A DNA stretch of 56,031 bases from the IMG/VR virus record IMGVR_UViG_3300010885_050120, positions 1 through 56,031 of that record; one strand, given 5' to 3'. Numbering within the stretch: position 1 is the first letter of the stretch; each line of letters begins with the position of its first letter. This DNA comes from a virus. This document shows positions 30,963-42,245 of this stretch, one piece after another. Under the pieces are notes generated by a model, which made no database searches, was not told the DNA's origin, and saw only the letters and a program-made list of their open reading frames with translations. The translations under genes were made by a program, and so were the position numbers.

Positions 30963-31400
30963 CTATTCCTTCCAAATCTCTACTGCAACTCCCGGAAGGC
31001 TCCCTTCGCCAGCCGGTGTCGTGTAGTTCTTACTGGCCGTCAAGCGGACGACCTGCGCATCATCTTGCCACAACCCTGCGTCCGTCCCCGCGTCCAAGAT
31101 GGCTCGCACCAACTTGTCCAGATCTGGCTTCACGATGTGGCTCGTACTGTACCCCTTCCGCAGCGTTCCGCTGCCGTTGAGGTGTGACTTCGGTCGCTCA
31201 AAGAAGAATGAGAGGCTCACGCCGACCGGTCCGTCAATGTTCGGTTGCCCGATACCACGACGAAACGCGAACGAGGTAAACTCCCGCCACTTCTTTAGAT
31301 TGACATTGTCGCTGGTAACGACAACTTTCCCGCCACGATTAAAGGCACGCGCCGATCCTTGCGGAACGGGAATGCCATAGATATAGGTGCGCCCGATCAT
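30963..31400 (-). CDS. RusA-like Holliday junction resolvase
   Basis: 145 residues from the ATG at 31400, which overlaps the methyltransferase stop as ATGA. RusA features: early strand YIYGIPVPQGSARAF, then SHIVKPDLDKLVRAILDAG, followed by WQDDAQVVRL, containing the conserved Asp residues. It would resolve four-way junctions before packaging. Neighbours SSB, DnaC-like and Cas4-like genes support a recombination/replication role. Confidence 0.88.
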   Translation of the reverse strand: MIGRTYIYGIPVPQGSARAFNRGGKVVVTSDNVNLKKWREFTSFAFRRGIGQPNIDGPVGVSLSFFFERPKSHLNGSGTLRKGYSTSHIVKPDLDKLVRAILDAGTDAGLWQDDAQVVRLTASKNYTTPAGEGSLPGVAVEIWKE

Positions 31401-32764
31401 AAGCGCGCGTCCACTTCTGCCAACCGTACGCCAATCCACTCGGCGACGTTGGAGACTACTCCGTTGCCGCACACCTTGTAGCGGTTGGAGTCCATGCCCT
31501 CTGGGTTGAGCTCGTCATTCGCCTGGCTGAACGATCCAACCACTGCGTGCGTGGTGCGGATGTCCGTGGTGTCAAAGGTGTTGAGCGTATTCGCTACACC
31601 GTCGTCTACCCACGTCTCTGGCGAACCGGGCGTACTGACCCGTGAGGACTTCCGATACGCAGCAGCAATAAAGGTCTGCGCGTGGTGGCTCTGTGGGCTC
31701 GGCCAGACTGCGTTGAGCGACAACGCCGTATCAATCGGTGTTGCCGAGAAGTTGCCAGCCTTGGCATCCTCACGAATGCTGTAGGCGTGCTGCTCTACTT
31801 CTTCTTTGCTCGGGACCGCTGCGCCCATTGCCCTAGCGCTGGAATTGTCCAGCCCTCCGGCCAACCCATCAGACGCTCGCACTCCATCGGCGAGAGTCTT
31901 CGGACTGATAACGAGCTTATTCCCTTGGGCATCGTTGTCGTCTGCTCCGAATCCTCCACCGAGTCCGCCTCGGGTGAGGGCTGTGGTGACAACGAGCTGT
32001 CCGTCTTCAACGGTGCTGGTTGGTCCCTTGTGGTATCTGGCGAGGAGTGCGCCAGCGACGTGAGGGCGTTCATCAGAGGCGCCGGAAGAATCCTGCCACG
32101 ACGTCCTGCGCGAGATAGAATGCCCGCAGCCGCCTTCGCACTCAAATAGAACCTCTGCGGAGCGGTCACTTCCAAGACTCGCGACAAGGAATACTCGACG
32201 GCGTCGTTGGGGGACTCCGAAGTAGCGCGCATCCAAAGTTCGCCACGATACGCCATACCCGAGTTCGTCCATTTCACGGAGAAGTCTGGCGAGGTCTCGT
32301 CCGTTATTGGACGAGAGGAGCCCAGGGACGTTTTCAAGCACGAGCCACCGAGGGCGGAATCGTTCCACAAGGTTAAGGAAGGTGAAGGCGAGGACTGATC
32401 GTTCTCCATCGGTGAATCCTTTCCGCTTTCCAGCGACTGAGAGGTCTTGGCAGGGGAATCCTCCTGACCAGATGTCTGCGTTTCTCCAATCCACACTGCT
32501 GGTGGTCCCGCCTTCACTGTCAGCGGGTCCGCCACGTCGTTGAAGTGGGTCGGCTGATTGCTGAACCACGCCGGAAAGCTCATGATTTGCAAGTGCGACG
32601 ATGTCCCCGAGTTGTGGGACTCCGGTGAATCGGCTGGCAAGGACGGATCTGGCGAAGGGGTCAATTTCGCTGACGCTGACTGTTTTGATTCCTGCTCGTT
32701 CAAATCCAAGATCAAGCCCTCCAACTCCGCTAAAGAATGATGCGTGGGTCAATGTTTTGGTCAT
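31397..32764 (-). CDS. C5-cytosine DNA methyltransferase
   Basis: 455 residues. Motif I FSGVGGLDLGFERAG (11-25), motif IV PCQDLS with catalytic Cys105, motif VI ENV (144-146), motif VIII QRRRR (186-190) and, at the far end, motif X NRYKVCGNGVVSNVAEWIG. Motif IX (RRLTPxExxRLQGFP) is not found in this frame, but a match lies in the overlapping frame described next. The variable region between VIII and X is long and Gly/Ser-rich. It should methylate cytosines in specific sites to guard phage DNA; the site cannot be read from sequence. Confidence 0.88.
   Translation of the reverse strand: MTKTLTHASFFSGVGGLDLGFERAGIKTVSVSEIDPFARSVLASRFTGVPQLGDIVALANHELSGVVQQSADPLQRRGGPADSEGGTTSSVDWRNADIWSGGFPCQDLSVAGKRKGFTDGERSVLAFTFLNLVERFRPRWLVLENVPGLLSSNNGRDLARLLREMDELGYGVSWRTLDARYFGVPQRRRRVFLVASLGSDRSAEVLFECEGGCGHSISRRTSWQDSSGASDERPHVAGALLARYHKGPTSTVEDGQLVVTTALTRGGLGGGFGADDNDAQGNKLVISPKTLADGVRASDGLAGGLDNSSARAMGAAVPSKEEVEQHAYSIREDAKAGNFSATPIDTALSLNAVWPSPQSHHAQTFIAAAYRKSSRVSTPGSPETWVDDGVANTLNTFDTTDIRTTHAVVGSFSQANDELNPEGMDSNRYKVCGNGVVSNVAEWIGVRLAEVDARL
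31795..32724 (-). CDS. Long overlapping reading frame inside the methyltransferase gene
   Basis: 309 codons in the +1 frame relative to the methyltransferase, same strand. Unlike a chance shadow, it has recognisable protein-like segments: VEYSLSRVLEV, FYLSAKAAAGILSRAGRRGR (residues about 192-211) and VRRLSPMECERLMGWPEGWT (274-293), the last matching C5-methyltransferase motif IX. I recall FLSxKACxGILRRAxxRG-type sequences in other phage proteins. It may be an overprinted gene or a frame used by ribosomal frameshifting. No ribosome site is obvious at its ATG. Confidence 0.4.
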   Translation of the reverse strand: MEGLILDLNEQESKQSASAKLTPSPDPSLPADSPESHNSGTSSHLQIMSFPAWFSNQPTHFNDVADPLTVKAGPPAVWIGETQTSGQEDSPAKTSQSLESGKDSPMENDQSSPSPSLTLWNDSALGGSCLKTSLGSSRPITDETSPDFSVKWTNSGMAYRGELWMRATSESPNDAVEYSLSRVLEVTAPQRFYLSAKAAAGILSRAGRRGRILPAPLMNALTSLAHSSPDTTRDQPAPLKTDSSLSPQPSPEADSVEDSEQTTTMPKGISSLSVRRLSPMECERLMGWPEGWTIPALGQWAQRSRAKKK

Positions 32765-36633: not shown

Positions 36634-36718
36634 CAGAGGGCTTTACCTTGTGTTCCGTTTTCAAGACTCTGCATGGAATGCAAAAGCATGGCTGCTGGTG
36701 ATAAAGCTTTTCGCTCAA
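36533..36718 (-). CDS. Possible small protein, 61 aa
   Basis: ATGA overlap with the portal stop supports a start at 36718. The sequence begins MSEKLYHQQPCFCIPCRVLK with a CxCxxC cluster and ends basic (KGSKVRRGFARKNQ). The long overlap with gene 36403 makes it uncertain. Confidence 0.42.
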   Translation of the reverse strand: MSEKLYHQQPCFCIPCRVLKTEHKVKPSDVRGSEAEADSASDSQRNKKGSKVRRGFARKNQ

Positions 36719-38889
36719 CCCTTGCGCTCGCGTGCTTCCACTTGGCGCATGACTTTATTAGACCAAGACATTCCTGCGTCTCCACCCCAGAGAGCCCACG
36801 CAATTCTTCCAGCGGATGGGAAACCAGACTGACCCGGCTTGAATCCCTCGCCCTGCTTGTCTACCTCATGCCGAGCAAGGAACGCGCGCATCTTGCGGAC
36901 ACGAGCAATAGTCATTGTGTTGCTAATCAGCATGTGGGCGGTGTGTTGACCAGGTCCGATACCGCCTCGCCCAAACTCCTTGCGCCAATCAAGTCCGCGT
37001 TGAGCCTCAGCCTTAACCGATGCAGGAACACTAAGGCTGATTCCAGAGTAATCAAACGCCTTGTATGAAGCCGATACCTCTTCTGGGCCATGAACATGGG
37101 GCACGCCAAGTGACTTATAGGCAGCCCGTACATCCGCATCATTTTCAATTGCCTCAACGACACGACCATTTTCCTTGAGGATCTTGGTCATCTTGTACTT
37201 CTTAAATTGTAGTCCGGCTCCGACTGGGAAGTCGCTAAGGTGCAAAGCATCATGAGGGATGTCATTTTCCTCTAGCCATTGCCGAGTTTCTTCAAGGCGC
37301 TTAATTGAACGGGCACTTACAATAAAAATCCGATGAGTATCAGACTTTTGCTGGAGGTATCCAGCAACAGCCTCATTTACCTGGTCGCTACCGTCATGGA
37401 TTGTGAGCGTACCGTCAATGTCGCAGACAATGATTGGGTCCCCCTCAGCCTTTGTCTCATCGGCTGGGATCTGGCTCGGCTCTGTGGTAGCACCCGGTTG
37501 TGGTGTCATATCCTCACCTCCTGGAATTGGTGCAGGCGATGACCCATCTGGGGTTGGGGGAGTATTGGGGGTGTCCTTGGGCTCTGCAAAAACAACCGAA
37601 TCCAAATATTCTTGATAGCGATCTGATGGGACGTAACCCTTTGGAGTTTGGAACATAATTTGATCGCCAATCTCACCAATGCCGTCCTGACCGCGCTCGC
37701 GCAAGGCGTCGTTGATGCGCAGCCAAGGAAGACCGCCAAGTGCCATCTTGTTGTATTCGGCAATAGCCTGTTGATTTGTTCGCCCAACTTCGGTGAACAC
37801 AAATCGGAGATCCTCGTCGTATCGAGCAACAATTTCGCGGGTTAGGTATTCGGCAACAAGGTCGCAGAGTGGAACAACGCCGTTATCCCATGTAAAGGCC
37901 GCACCGGTCTCGGAAGTGCTCTTGTTGATGTCAAACGAGATGCCAATGTCTTGCGGCTGGACGGCAAAGACGGCGCAGATCTTTCGGGCAAGGTAGACCT
38001 GCCATTCCATGAACTGCATATCTCGGTTTGAGGAAGCAAGAGGGAGCCACTGCATACCCTTGCCACCGCCCGTAATTGCCATTTGGCTCTTGCCTGCAAC
38101 TTCAGCTTCCCAATAAGCCTTAAATGAGTCAACTTGATCTGGACGCACGCCCTCACCAAGGTGCAAAACACCTGGAGGGGTAGCCTGCTGAACCGCCTTT
38201 GCGTTATATGCGGCTGCATTAAGGTCTGCTTCAATCGTTTCCGAAAGAACCTCAAGCGGGGATAGACCAATCGGGCTATACGTAACTGGGTTAGCAATGA
38301 TAACAATCAATTCATCATTGTAATACTCGGCTGTTTGCTTTCCAGCGCTGTCAAGTTCGTAATATCGCACCTGCTTCAGATCGCGACCGTCCCATGTGGT
38401 GTCAAATGCAATGCGCGCAGCATCTTTATTCCAGAGATACGCAATCGGGTTGACGCTGCTCAGCCTTGCGCCAGCAGTCTTCTCTACTTCAATTGCACCT
38501 TGGTCAAGGACCAGAATGTCCTCAATGACTGGCTCAATGAACGAACGCCAAGACTCACCCTTTGGATTCGGGCTACGCAGAAGCGCCTTAATGCGCTCTA
38601 CCGTCTTTGGGTTAGCGACCATTCCCGCATCTACCGTGGTGATGTCCCACTTAGCGCGGCTTACCTGAGTGCGGCGAAGGTTGATAGCAGCACGAATCCA
38701 TGGGTTGTTTCGCGACCAGCGGCGGAGCTGTTCGGTGCTCATCTTTGTAATAGCCTGCATGCCAAATGCGCCACGAGCGTATGGAGCCATTTCTGGCATC
38801 AATGCAGGAAGAGCCTTGGTTGTATCAGATCCATTATTGGCAGATCCCCCGCCAAATACCCTCTGAAATAGTGATCGCTGCTCAGCCAT
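36715..38889 (-). CDS. Portal protein fused to HAD phosphatase-like and phage C-terminal domains
   Basis: 724 residues from the ATG at 38889 (GAGGT upstream). Residues about 1-420 are a phage portal protein (LRRWSRNNPWIRAAINLRR; QDIGISFDINKSTSETGAAF). After a Pro-rich linker, DPIIVCDIDGTLTIHDG opens a HAD/polynucleotide-phosphatase-like domain with IFIVSARS and ENDADVRAAYKSLGV. The end (RKEFGRGGIGPGQHTAHM ... PSAGRIAWALWGGDAG) matches a domain that I recall at the C-termini of phage head proteins. The portal forms the dodecameric DNA gate. Encoded opposite to the capsid genes. Confidence 0.85.
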   Translation of the reverse strand: MAEQRSLFQRVFGGGSANNGSDTTKALPALMPEMAPYARGAFGMQAITKMSTEQLRRWSRNNPWIRAAINLRRTQVSRAKWDITTVDAGMVANPKTVERIKALLRSPNPKGESWRSFIEPVIEDILVLDQGAIEVEKTAGARLSSVNPIAYLWNKDAARIAFDTTWDGRDLKQVRYYELDSAGKQTAEYYNDELIVIIANPVTYSPIGLSPLEVLSETIEADLNAAAYNAKAVQQATPPGVLHLGEGVRPDQVDSFKAYWEAEVAGKSQMAITGGGKGMQWLPLASSNRDMQFMEWQVYLARKICAVFAVQPQDIGISFDINKSTSETGAAFTWDNGVVPLCDLVAEYLTREIVARYDEDLRFVFTEVGRTNQQAIAEYNKMALGGLPWLRINDALRERGQDGIGEIGDQIMFQTPKGYVPSDRYQEYLDSVVFAEPKDTPNTPPTPDGSSPAPIPGGEDMTPQPGATTEPSQIPADETKAEGDPIIVCDIDGTLTIHDGSDQVNEAVAGYLQQKSDTHRIFIVSARSIKRLEETRQWLEENDIPHDALHLSDFPVGAGLQFKKYKMTKILKENGRVVEAIENDADVRAAYKSLGVPHVHGPEEVSASYKAFDYSGISLSVPASVKAEAQRGLDWRKEFGRGGIGPGQHTAHMLISNTMTIARVRKMRAFLARHEVDKQGEGFKPGQSGFPSAGRIAWALWGGDAGMSWSNKVMRQVEARERKG

Positions 38890-38891
38890 TG

Positions 38892-39119
38892 CTACCTCAT
38901 GCTCCTTTGCTGTCGGCGGATTGCGTCTGTCCAAATGCTTTCAAGTGCATCAGTATTAACGAAATCGCGCATTTCCGCAAGACTGCAATCTACTACGCGA
39001 ATTCCGTTAATGTAGTTAACTGTTCTCCTGTTAAGCGCCTTTGCCCAGTAAACTGGGACTACGAAGGTCCCATCTGAAAACTGAACCTCAAGAGTTGAGT
39101 CAACGCTCGGTGTCGTCAT
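38892..39119 (-). CDS. Hypothetical protein before portal, 75 aa
   Basis: Start at 39119 (MTTPSVDSTLEVQFSDG) preferred over 39140. Strand-rich first half (TFVVPVYWAKALN), helical second half with a basic end (RRQQRSMR). Overlaps the stop of the gene at 39100. Confidence 0.6.
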   Translation of the reverse strand: MTTPSVDSTLEVQFSDGTFVVPVYWAKALNRRTVNYINGIRVVDCSLAEMRDFVNTDALESIWTDAIRRQQRSMR

Positions 39120-39785: not shown

Positions 39786-42245
39786 GTGGACTTTAAGCTC
39801 TACACCAATGCCCTGAAGGCATACACCGCAGACAATGGTGACCTTCACGTTCGGGGCACAACCTCATCCACCATCGTAGATATGCACGGCGACGAGATGA
39901 CCCTTGCGGCCCTCAAGTCTATGGAAGAGACCGCCAAGCAGAACATGACCGTCTTCCTTAACCACAACTACAATGTTCCTGACGACCTTTTTGGCTCAGT
40001 AACGGACGCGCGTATTGTTAAGCGATACGATCAGGAGTTGGGCACCGAGGTCTATGACCTTGATATTGATGTCCGAGTTGTTGGCGAAGACGAAAACCCA
40101 CTTGCCATGAAGACCTACCGTGCTATTAAGCGCGGCGTAAAGCTTGGTCTCTCCATTGGCGCCCGAGTTGAGAAGGTTGCCAAGCGCAAGGCCAACGACG
40201 GCAAGGAGACCTACGTCATTGACAGCGTCCGGCTCCTTGAGTCGTCCGTAGTTGGTATCCCGGCAAATCAGCGTTCATACTTACAGAGCGCCCTAAAGAG
40301 CCTCCGCTCGCCAGGCGTTGGGGAAAGCCTTGAGAAGGCTGCCGCCGATGGCATTAAAGAAGGAGACTTTGTTTCTTGGGATTCTAGCGGCGGTGCCGCC
40401 CGTGGTCGAGTTGAGCATGTGATGCGTGAGGGCACCCTTGGCATTCCTGATTCTGACTTCAAGATCAATGCAACGCCAGAAGACCCAGCAGCCTTGATCC
40501 GAATTTGGAGCAAGAGCGGCGATGGCTGGGCTGAAACCGACAAGTTGGTTGGGCATAAGTTCTCAACCCTGCGCAAGATTGAATCGCTTAAGGCGTTTGG
40601 CGATCTTGTTGTTAAGGCCGTGGAGCTAGAGGGTCAGCCAGCACCAGAGCGCGCTGCGTTGATTGAATCGCTTCAGGATCTGCTTGCGGACAGCACCGCC
40701 TTTTATCTCAAGGCCCATGGGGCGCACTGGAACGTGGTCGGTGAGGATTTCACCGAGTATCACGTTCTATTTGAAGAGATCTATAAGGACGTTCAGGAGG
40801 CAATTGATCCAACTGCGGAACTGCTTCGCAAACTGAATGCCCCAACGCTTGCAGACATTACCGAAATTGCCGCCCGCGCCAAGGGCGAGCCAGTTGCTGA
40901 CGACAATGACCCAGAGAGTCTTGCCGAGGCAGTTTATGCTGCCAACGAAACCGTGCTTGACTGCATCATTCGTGCTATCAATGAGGCTGCCAAACTGAAC
41001 CAGCAGGGAGTTTTGAACTTCCTAGCCGAGCGTCAGGATATGCACCAGAAGTGGTCATGGCAGCTCCGAGCCTCGCTGGCACCCGAGGAAACTGAGCCGG
41101 AACCGGCTGAGACCCCAGAGGCGCCTGGCGACATGCCAGAGGTTGAGGATTCATTGAAGGCTGCATCCAAGATTGAGATGGGAAACTATGTTTCTTGGAA
41201 GCAGGTAGAAGGCGCCGATGGCGTAGGCGAGGTTGAGCAGGTTGTTAAGGATGGCAAAGTCACGGTTCCGCCTAAGGGCGATACTGTGGCATCTAAGCCA
41301 AACGACCCTGCGGTACTTGTCCGTGTCTGGAATCCAGAGAACGGTGGGTACAAGCCAAGCAACGAATTCATGGGCTTCAATGCGTCCCAGTTGACGATTG
41401 TGCCCGATTTGGGTAAGGGCGGTAAGAAGCCCGATGCCACAACTGTACCGGGCTTGGAAATTACCAACCCGCAAGAGGAGAAAAAGTCCATGGAAGATCT
41501 AGAGCAGAAGAAGACTCGTGTGACCGTTACGGTCAGCACGGAAGGCGACGGCGCTGCTGTCGCCACTCAGCCTGCCCCTGCGGCGGAGCCTGAGGATACG
41601 GAGGAGGTCGCCCCAGAGGCGGTCACCGCCTCCGCCGAGAATGATTGCGACTGCGCCGAAGGCGCTTGCGCTTGCGAGGGTGAGATTGTGGAGAAGGCTT
41701 TTGAGTCTGCTCCGTCTGCCACCCCAGCACCAGCGCCTGCCCCAGAGCCAGAGCCAGCACCTGTTGTTGACCCGAAGCCTGCCGACGCCCCCAAGGCGTC
41801 AGAAGGCGAAGAGAACAAGAGCCCACGCTACAAGAGTGGCGTGAGCGATCAGGTTCTCTCCGGAATCAACGGCATTCTTGCAGACCTTACCGACGAGGAC
41901 CGCGATGCGGTTCTCTCCGGTCTTGGCGTCCAGAAGGATGGCGAGCCAGAGGTTGCCCCAATTTCTGATTCCACTGCGGCTGTTGAAGTCGCTGAGGATG
42001 TTGCCCCTGCTGCGGAAGAGGTTGCCGTTGAGGTAGCCCCTGCCGAAGTTGAGGCAGTTCCAGCCGAAGGCGAAAGCACCACCTCTCTGGAGGAGGTAGC
42101 CGCTATTGCCAAGTCGGCACTCGATGCAGCCATCGCTGCGCAACAGGAGGTCGTTTCCTTCAAGAAGGAACTGACCGAACTGGCTGCGGACAAGGCCAAG
42201 GTCGAGGAGAACTTGCTAAGGCTTTGGATGTTGTTGGTCGTATGA
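39786..42245 (+). CDS. Prohead protease-scaffold fusion with Dps ferritin-like and two Tudor-like domains
   Basis: 819 residues, GTG start with GGAGG upstream. Residues 1-170: HK97-type (S78) protease, with candidate His60 (FLNHNYN), Ser123 (GLSIG) and an acidic residue near 152. 192-265 and 464-540: Hva1/DUF2945-like Tudor domains. 285-432: Dps-like domain with HWNVVG, where His314, His326, Glu330, Asp341 and Glu345 match Dps ferroxidase ligands in identity and spacing. Then a Cys-rich patch (about 620-632), a Pro/Ala/Glu linker and a scaffold-like coiled coil. The frame ends early; see the frameshift note at 42200. Confidence 0.87.
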   Translation: MDFKLYTNALKAYTADNGDLHVRGTTSSTIVDMHGDEMTLAALKSMEETAKQNMTVFLNHNYNVPDDLFGSVTDARIVKRYDQELGTEVYDLDIDVRVVGEDENPLAMKTYRAIKRGVKLGLSIGARVEKVAKRKANDGKETYVIDSVRLLESSVVGIPANQRSYLQSALKSLRSPGVGESLEKAAADGIKEGDFVSWDSSGGAARGRVEHVMREGTLGIPDSDFKINATPEDPAALIRIWSKSGDGWAETDKLVGHKFSTLRKIESLKAFGDLVVKAVELEGQPAPERAALIESLQDLLADSTAFYLKAHGAHWNVVGEDFTEYHVLFEEIYKDVQEAIDPTAELLRKLNAPTLADITEIAARAKGEPVADDNDPESLAEAVYAANETVLDCIIRAINEAAKLNQQGVLNFLAERQDMHQKWSWQLRASLAPEETEPEPAETPEAPGDMPEVEDSLKAASKIEMGNYVSWKQVEGADGVGEVEQVVKDGKVTVPPKGDTVASKPNDPAVLVRVWNPENGGYKPSNEFMGFNASQLTIVPDLGKGGKKPDATTVPGLEITNPQEEKKSMEDLEQKKTRVTVTVSTEGDGAAVATQPAPAAEPEDTEEVAPEAVTASAENDCDCAEGACACEGEIVEKAFESAPSATPAPAPAPEPEPAPVVDPKPADAPKASEGEENKSPRYKSGVSDQVLSGINGILADLTDEDRDAVLSGLGVQKDGEPEVAPISDSTAAVEVAEDVAPAAEEVAVEVAPAEVEAVPAEGESTTSLEEVAAIAKSALDAAIAAQQEVVSFKKELTELAADKAKVEENLLRLWMLLVV

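Follow-up and report, generated by a model that had tools for sequence, protein, structure and literature searches.

The stretch of viral DNA analysed here (the window: 56,031 nt of the 56 kb record IMGVR_UViG_3300010885_050120, to which all window coordinates refer) very probably encodes a two-chain C5 cytosine methyltransferase of the M.EcoHK31I kind, in which a smaller chain (beta) is nested in the +1 frame of the gene for the larger chain (alpha) and supplies both motif IX and the connector piece that follows motif VIII, here named the hinge. The two-chain principle is already known from M.EcoHK31I; what looks new is its spread among phages, the selection acting on both frames, a recognition-like element that changes frame, and the presence of hinge-only nested ORFs under 'complete' enzymes. 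The features of the locus are as follows, p1 and p3 denoting divergence at the first and third codon positions of the main (alpha) frame:

31397..32764, minus strand: alpha, C5 cytosine methyltransferase ORF of 455 aa with an ATG start
32447..32455, minus strand: alpha motif IV, PCQ, with catalytic cysteine 105
32189..32209, minus strand: alpha motif VIII, QRRRRVF
31430..31483, minus strand: alpha motif X, RYKVCGNGVVSNVAEWIG, 3' of the beta stop and with a main-frame-only pattern of divergence
31795..32724, minus strand: open +1 frame of 309 codons from a mechanical TTG start, containing beta
31795..32583, minus strand: beta in its probable extent, 262 aa from ATG 32583, a conserved start at which +1 constraint begins
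32485..32583, minus strand: target-recognition-like element in beta, MSFPAWFSNQPTHFNDVADPLTVKAGPPAVWIG, overlapping an alpha insertion predicted to be disordered, p1>p3
32047..32259, minus strand: hinge (connector) in beta, GMAYRGEL...SLSRVLEVTAPQRFYLSAKAAAGILSRAGRRGR..., overlapping alpha around motif VIII and downstream
31846..31905, minus strand: beta motif IX, VRRLSPMECERLMGWPEGWT

The start of alpha overlaps the upstream gene, which encodes a DnaC-like helicase loader, by four bases, and a RusA-like resolvase gene lies downstream. Alpha matches Pfam DNA_methylase (PF00145, E 1e-46) and TIGR00675 (dcm), and its chain carries motifs I, IV (PCQ, codons 104-106), VI (ENV, codons 144-146), VIII (QRRRR, codons 186-190) and X (codons 428-445), which place it among the C5 cytosine methyltransferases; motif IX, expected in the same chain of such an enzyme, is absent from it. 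The assignment of motifs I-VIII and X, without IX, to the main frame in the first-pass annotation was thus borne out by motif inspection and by the two family matches. The large domain of alpha is modelled confidently by AlphaFold and aligns to M.HhaI (Z 21.8 over 206 residues), while nothing in residues 226-424 is confidently modelled; mean AlphaFold confidence is low for the alpha and beta models alike, at about 58.

The missing motif had been attributed to the nested frame, and this attribution held. A motif IX model built solely from relatives less than 45% identical to the window's ORF gave 45.7 bits in the +1 frame and zero in the main and +2 frames; the highest score among 1000 synonymous shuffles of the alpha gene, which preserve the alpha protein and its codon usage, was 15.0 bits. 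Additionally, the +1 frame is free of stop codons from codon 61 to the beta stop, a stretch in which the shuffles contain four stops on average and 0.7% of them have none. Motif IX lies in the +1 frame and is absent from the main frame in all 16 of the aligned S-type relatives, with motif X staying in the main frame. A pattern search of the fetched loci located motif IX in the +1 and not the main frame at 122 loci (duplicates included) and in the main and not the +1 frame at 20, and left 28 loci uncalled, many of them with a divergent motif.

The divergence of close relatives separates the overlap from the remainder of the gene. Across codons 1-60 and 331-455 the third position is the most variable (p3>>p1), which is the ordinary one-frame pattern, whereas codons 61-90, 211-240 and 271-330 display the reverse (p1>p3, the first position of the main frame being the third position of the +1 frame), and codons 121-210 are constrained in both frames. 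In ten-codon bins the reversal sets in at codon 61 and ends at the beta stop, and the swap of variable and constrained codon positions was seen across dozens of independent contigs. Within the overlap, +1 identity exceeded the synonymous-shuffle expectation by about 10 SD in relatives with roughly 60% alpha identity and by 4-7 SD in those near 50%; in the tail of the alpha gene it was near that expectation. The comparison of z-scores among the +1, +2 and antisense frames is indecisive alone, since wobble conservation lifts several frames, and the question was settled by the position-specific rates. These substitution patterns indicate that both frames of the alpha/beta overlap are under purifying selection. 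The proposal that two overlapping proteins are under selection is therefore supported by codon-position divergence, by synonymous shuffles and by homologues of the +1 frame, and the suggested resemblance of the nested frame to other phage proteins extends to homologues across phages and cellular genomes; the contrary outcome named in the first-pass annotation, a nested frame lacking homologues together with synonymous-only constraint on the main frame, was looked for and not found. A sequencing error or a local frameshift mutation is ruled out by the recurrence of the arrangement in dozens of independent contigs.

The +1 protein was detected by tblastn in 81 phage records, and scans yielded 28 viral loci with the +1 protein, 41 with alpha and 80 with the profile (contigs being partly shared), as well as 34 loci in bacterial and archaeal genomes. 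The cellular relatives, for example those in Xenorhabdus, Undibacterium, Methylococcaceae and Methanoculleus, have an alpha of about 300-340 aa and a nested ORF of about 185-220 codons, and their codon-position rates reverse as in the phage loci. A two-chain arrangement retained in this manner across deeply diverged phages and cellular genomes would represent an unusually clear natural case of overlapping genes that encode the partners of one enzyme. Very long nested +1 ORFs, of 348-482 codons from stop to stop, were also observed in the methyltransferase genes of loci L122, L124, L126 and L141.

With respect to the extent of beta, the first-pass annotation had described a 309-codon +1 ORF at 31795..32724 on the minus strand containing two quoted peptides. 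Both peptides were found there and the open frame exists, but TTG 32724 is merely its first mechanical start, and beta is more likely to begin at ATG 32583, since codon 61, the onset of constraint on the +1 frame, coincides with a conserved start codon (ATG or GTG in 10 of the 10 compared sequences aligning there). No Shine-Dalgarno match of at least four bases was present upstream of the window's beta ATG. In a sister group that lacks the alpha insertion described below, the arrangement GGAGGTG-7 nt-ATG is conserved before the nested ORF, with its ATG in the alignment column of the window's beta ATG. Shine-Dalgarno enrichment before the nested ATG is clear in the phage S-type loci; no clear enrichment was observed in the cellular loci, which have GTG candidates instead. 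A standalone nested protein without an overlapping methyltransferase was not encountered among the loci examined in a non-exhaustive look.

In the window's lineage, beta opens with the pattern SFPxxYSxQPTxFNDxxDPLTxxAGxPAV, encoded in the +1 frame where alpha has an insertion predicted to be disordered (residues 67-89, AlphaFold pLDDT about 35). Other relatives (e.g. L010, L017 and L049) carry the same recognition-like element in the main frame of alpha. Among distinct loci it occurred in the +1 frame only in 23, in the main frame only in 11-12 and in both frames in none, an exclusivity that fits two chains forming one enzyme. The simplest account of the shared start column in the sister group would be that a recognition-like module was inserted directly after the start codon of beta. 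As alpha retains conserved recognition-like elements of its own, the share of the small domain contributed by beta is uncertain.

The hinge of the window scored 119 bits in the +1 frame against a shuffle maximum of 50. A beta profile gave a weak match (E 0.018) to Shigella Dcm (3lx6/3me5) spanning the hinge and motif IX, the matched pieces of Dcm being TLAQLLDPMVEAKYILTP, just after motif VIII, and RRLTPRECARLMG, which is motif IX. E. coli Dcm similarly has a hinge-like segment (weak match) followed by motif IX, but both lie in the main frame of a single chain, and its +1 frame scores zero for the hinge, as does that of locus L174. A search of the PDB with a hinge-only profile returned nothing meaningful, and Pfam holds no model for the nested hinge. 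Modelled alone, beta is mostly of low confidence and much of it is predicted to be disordered, with confident structure only in the hinge helices and motif IX. Based on the Dcm alignment and on the complementary confident regions of the two AlphaFold models, alpha and beta are predicted to hold jointly the parts of one enzyme.

From this layout we infer internal initiation, assembly of the chains, their joint activity and a biological role. A single mRNA would be translated both from the alpha start and from the internal +1 start. Alpha would constitute the catalytic large domain, with the AdoMet site, the PCQ cysteine, motif VIII and the motif X helix, while beta would provide the hinge, leading from motif VIII to the small DNA-binding domain, and motif IX, thereby completing that domain; in the window's lineage the N-terminus of beta would add the recognition-like element. 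The putative alpha-beta assembly would then act as one enzyme, methylating the phage DNA at a specific site and probably protecting it from host restriction.

Compared by motif layout, the window system resembles M.EcoHK31I, with motifs I-VIII and X on alpha and motif IX on the small chain, and the two hallmarks of that type, the split of the motifs and selection on both chains, were both found. The beta gene of M.EcoHK31I lies inside its alpha gene in another frame and encodes 176 aa. The window system differs in being phage-borne, in its longer beta (about 262 aa versus 176 aa) and in the recognition-like N-terminal element of beta, which relatives keep in alpha. The cellular loci, with an alpha of about 300-340 aa and a beta of about 185 aa, are near the subunit sizes of M.EcoHK31I. 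M.AquI is likewise a split C5 enzyme for which two polypeptides are needed, but its break lies in the variable region and its small subunit bears both motif IX and motif X (PMC3404938), whereas motif X of the window stays on alpha, downstream of the beta stop, and the locus is consequently not of the M.AquI type.

Beyond the window, we consider it likely on balance that many of the phage C5 methyltransferases that carry a single-chain annotation, P1 Dmt and the streptococcal, clostridial, mycobacterial and Vibrio phage enzymes among them, consist of two chains, with the hinge (with or without motif IX and the recognition-like element) in a nested +1 ORF, and that modules can switch frames. Phages whose main frame keeps motif IX, Vibrio phages included, have a shorter +1 ORF that still carries the hinge, and in one 20-codon bin of these hinge-only loci +1 identity was 0.60 versus 0.23 in the main frame. 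The hinge scored 105 bits in the +1 frame of P1 dmt, 97 in a Providencia phage, 89 in Pseudanabaena phage Pan4, 40 in Clostridioides phage phiC2, 36 each in a Streptococcus agalactiae phage and Lactobacillus phage SAC12B, and 32 in a Tenericutes phage; each of the seven lay above all 500 synonymous shuffles, and the training set of the hinge model included the window and P1 sequences and none of the other scored sequences. In P1 dmt (AF234172; L071 2794-3282) the hinge occupies an unannotated +1 ORF of 163 codons (shuffle maximum 43 bits), and the main frame of Dmt retains motif IX. In most hinge-only enzymes the +1 frame is open upstream of the hinge for longer than shuffles predict, an effect that is clear in low-GC phages and weak in several GC-rich ones, and several hold it open for 60-110 codons. 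The nested protein of phiC2 has relatives in 210 phage records.

In two streptococcal phages a nested +1 ORF is already annotated inside the methyltransferase gene, namely ORF14 inside ORF13 of S. pneumoniae phage MM1 (L187 1833-2258; both labelled 'DNA methyltransferase') and gp40, annotated as a DNA methyltransferase, inside gp39 of S. thermophilus phage P0091 (L188 1827-2246). They share this arrangement with the window, but their motif IX lies in the main frame and only the hinge is found in the nested ORF. Of 26 such nested proteins, 17 match PHROGs family 16143. A literature search, with REBASE and most subscription papers outside its scope, found no report of the nested frames in P1 dmt or MM1. 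The two-chain arrangement is probably far more widespread than recognised; if so, part of the small domain has been missed in the annotation, and perhaps in the cloning, of a common class of phage enzymes, and the uncertain cytosine methylation by P1 Dmt becomes directly testable.

Programmed frameshifting would produce a single chain in which motifs I-VIII of alpha run on into the +1 hinge and motif IX. The most conserved part of beta does start at motif VIII, where a +1 shift gives the order VIII-hinge-IX. However, selection on the second frame, which under this explanation is expected only downstream of the shift site, begins at the conserved start codon at codon 61, upstream of motif IV, and the fusion would lack motif X unless a second shift led back; these two points render frameshifting improbable. 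The long +1 openings upstream of the hinge in several hinge-only enzymes likewise argue against it. A second chain is favoured, since +1 selection sets in at a conserved start codon, some 120 codons before motif VIII, since the sister group conserves an internal Shine-Dalgarno sequence and ATG before the nested ORF, which also speaks against a shift, and since in M.EcoHK31I, a known two-polypeptide C5 methyltransferase (YGGCCR), the larger chain has motifs I-VIII and X and the smaller only motif IX (PMC3404938). Thus, where the first-pass annotation had left overlapping proteins, frameshifting and a second chain as alternatives, selection on both frames and the second chain stood, while frameshifting lost ground.

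The predicted disorder of much of beta, and the hinge-only nested ORFs that some phages have under an enzyme already holding motif IX, might alternatively reflect a genuine overlapping protein that serves a separate function (e.g. anti-restriction or regulation), unrelated to the methyltransferase fold. Such a role is very unlikely for a protein that carries the methyltransferase motif IX lacking from alpha, whose hinge sits in the main frame of E. coli Dcm (albeit as a weak match) and whose recognition-like element is exclusive between frames. It is scarcely credible that conservation of the main frame, together with codon bias, produced the +1 similarity as a by-product. Motif VIII of the main frame (RVFIV) does mechanically give CSLS-like +1 peptides, and the +2 and antisense frames also exceed shuffles, since wobble bases are conserved; yet the rates reverse, +1 identity beats main-frame identity in whole blocks (as in the bin cited above), the motif IX and hinge scores lie above every synonymous shuffle, and little or no effect is seen in the gene's tail. 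An origin as a by-product, by chance or from codon bias is refuted by the shuffles and the position-specific rates for motif IX, for the hinge and for the recognition-like block. The two-chain reading of the window locus is accordingly retained as the most probable one.

Two further phage loci depart from these layouts. Mycobacterium phage Lucky2013 (L072 2275-3475) has an enzyme apparently in three pieces: motifs I-VIII lie in gp113, the hinge is nested in the +1 frame, and motif IX, together with a motif X-like end, lies in gp114, a separate ORF further downstream. In Lactococcus phage 4268, the methyltransferase ORF (orf14; L190 1682-2239) ends after 185 aa, immediately beyond motif VIII, and a +1 hinge is nevertheless present (40 bits).

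Elsewhere in the window, the N-terminus of an 819-aa ORF at 39786-42245 on the plus strand matches head maturation protease families, and residues 291-431 of this ORF match a DNA-binding protein family. Furthermore, a 739-aa ORF at 36715-38934 on the minus strand matches portal proteins over residues 21-521, polynucleotide kinase families at about 490-614 and another, unknown family at 634-736, and from these matches it may possibly be a portal protein with an enzyme-like extension.
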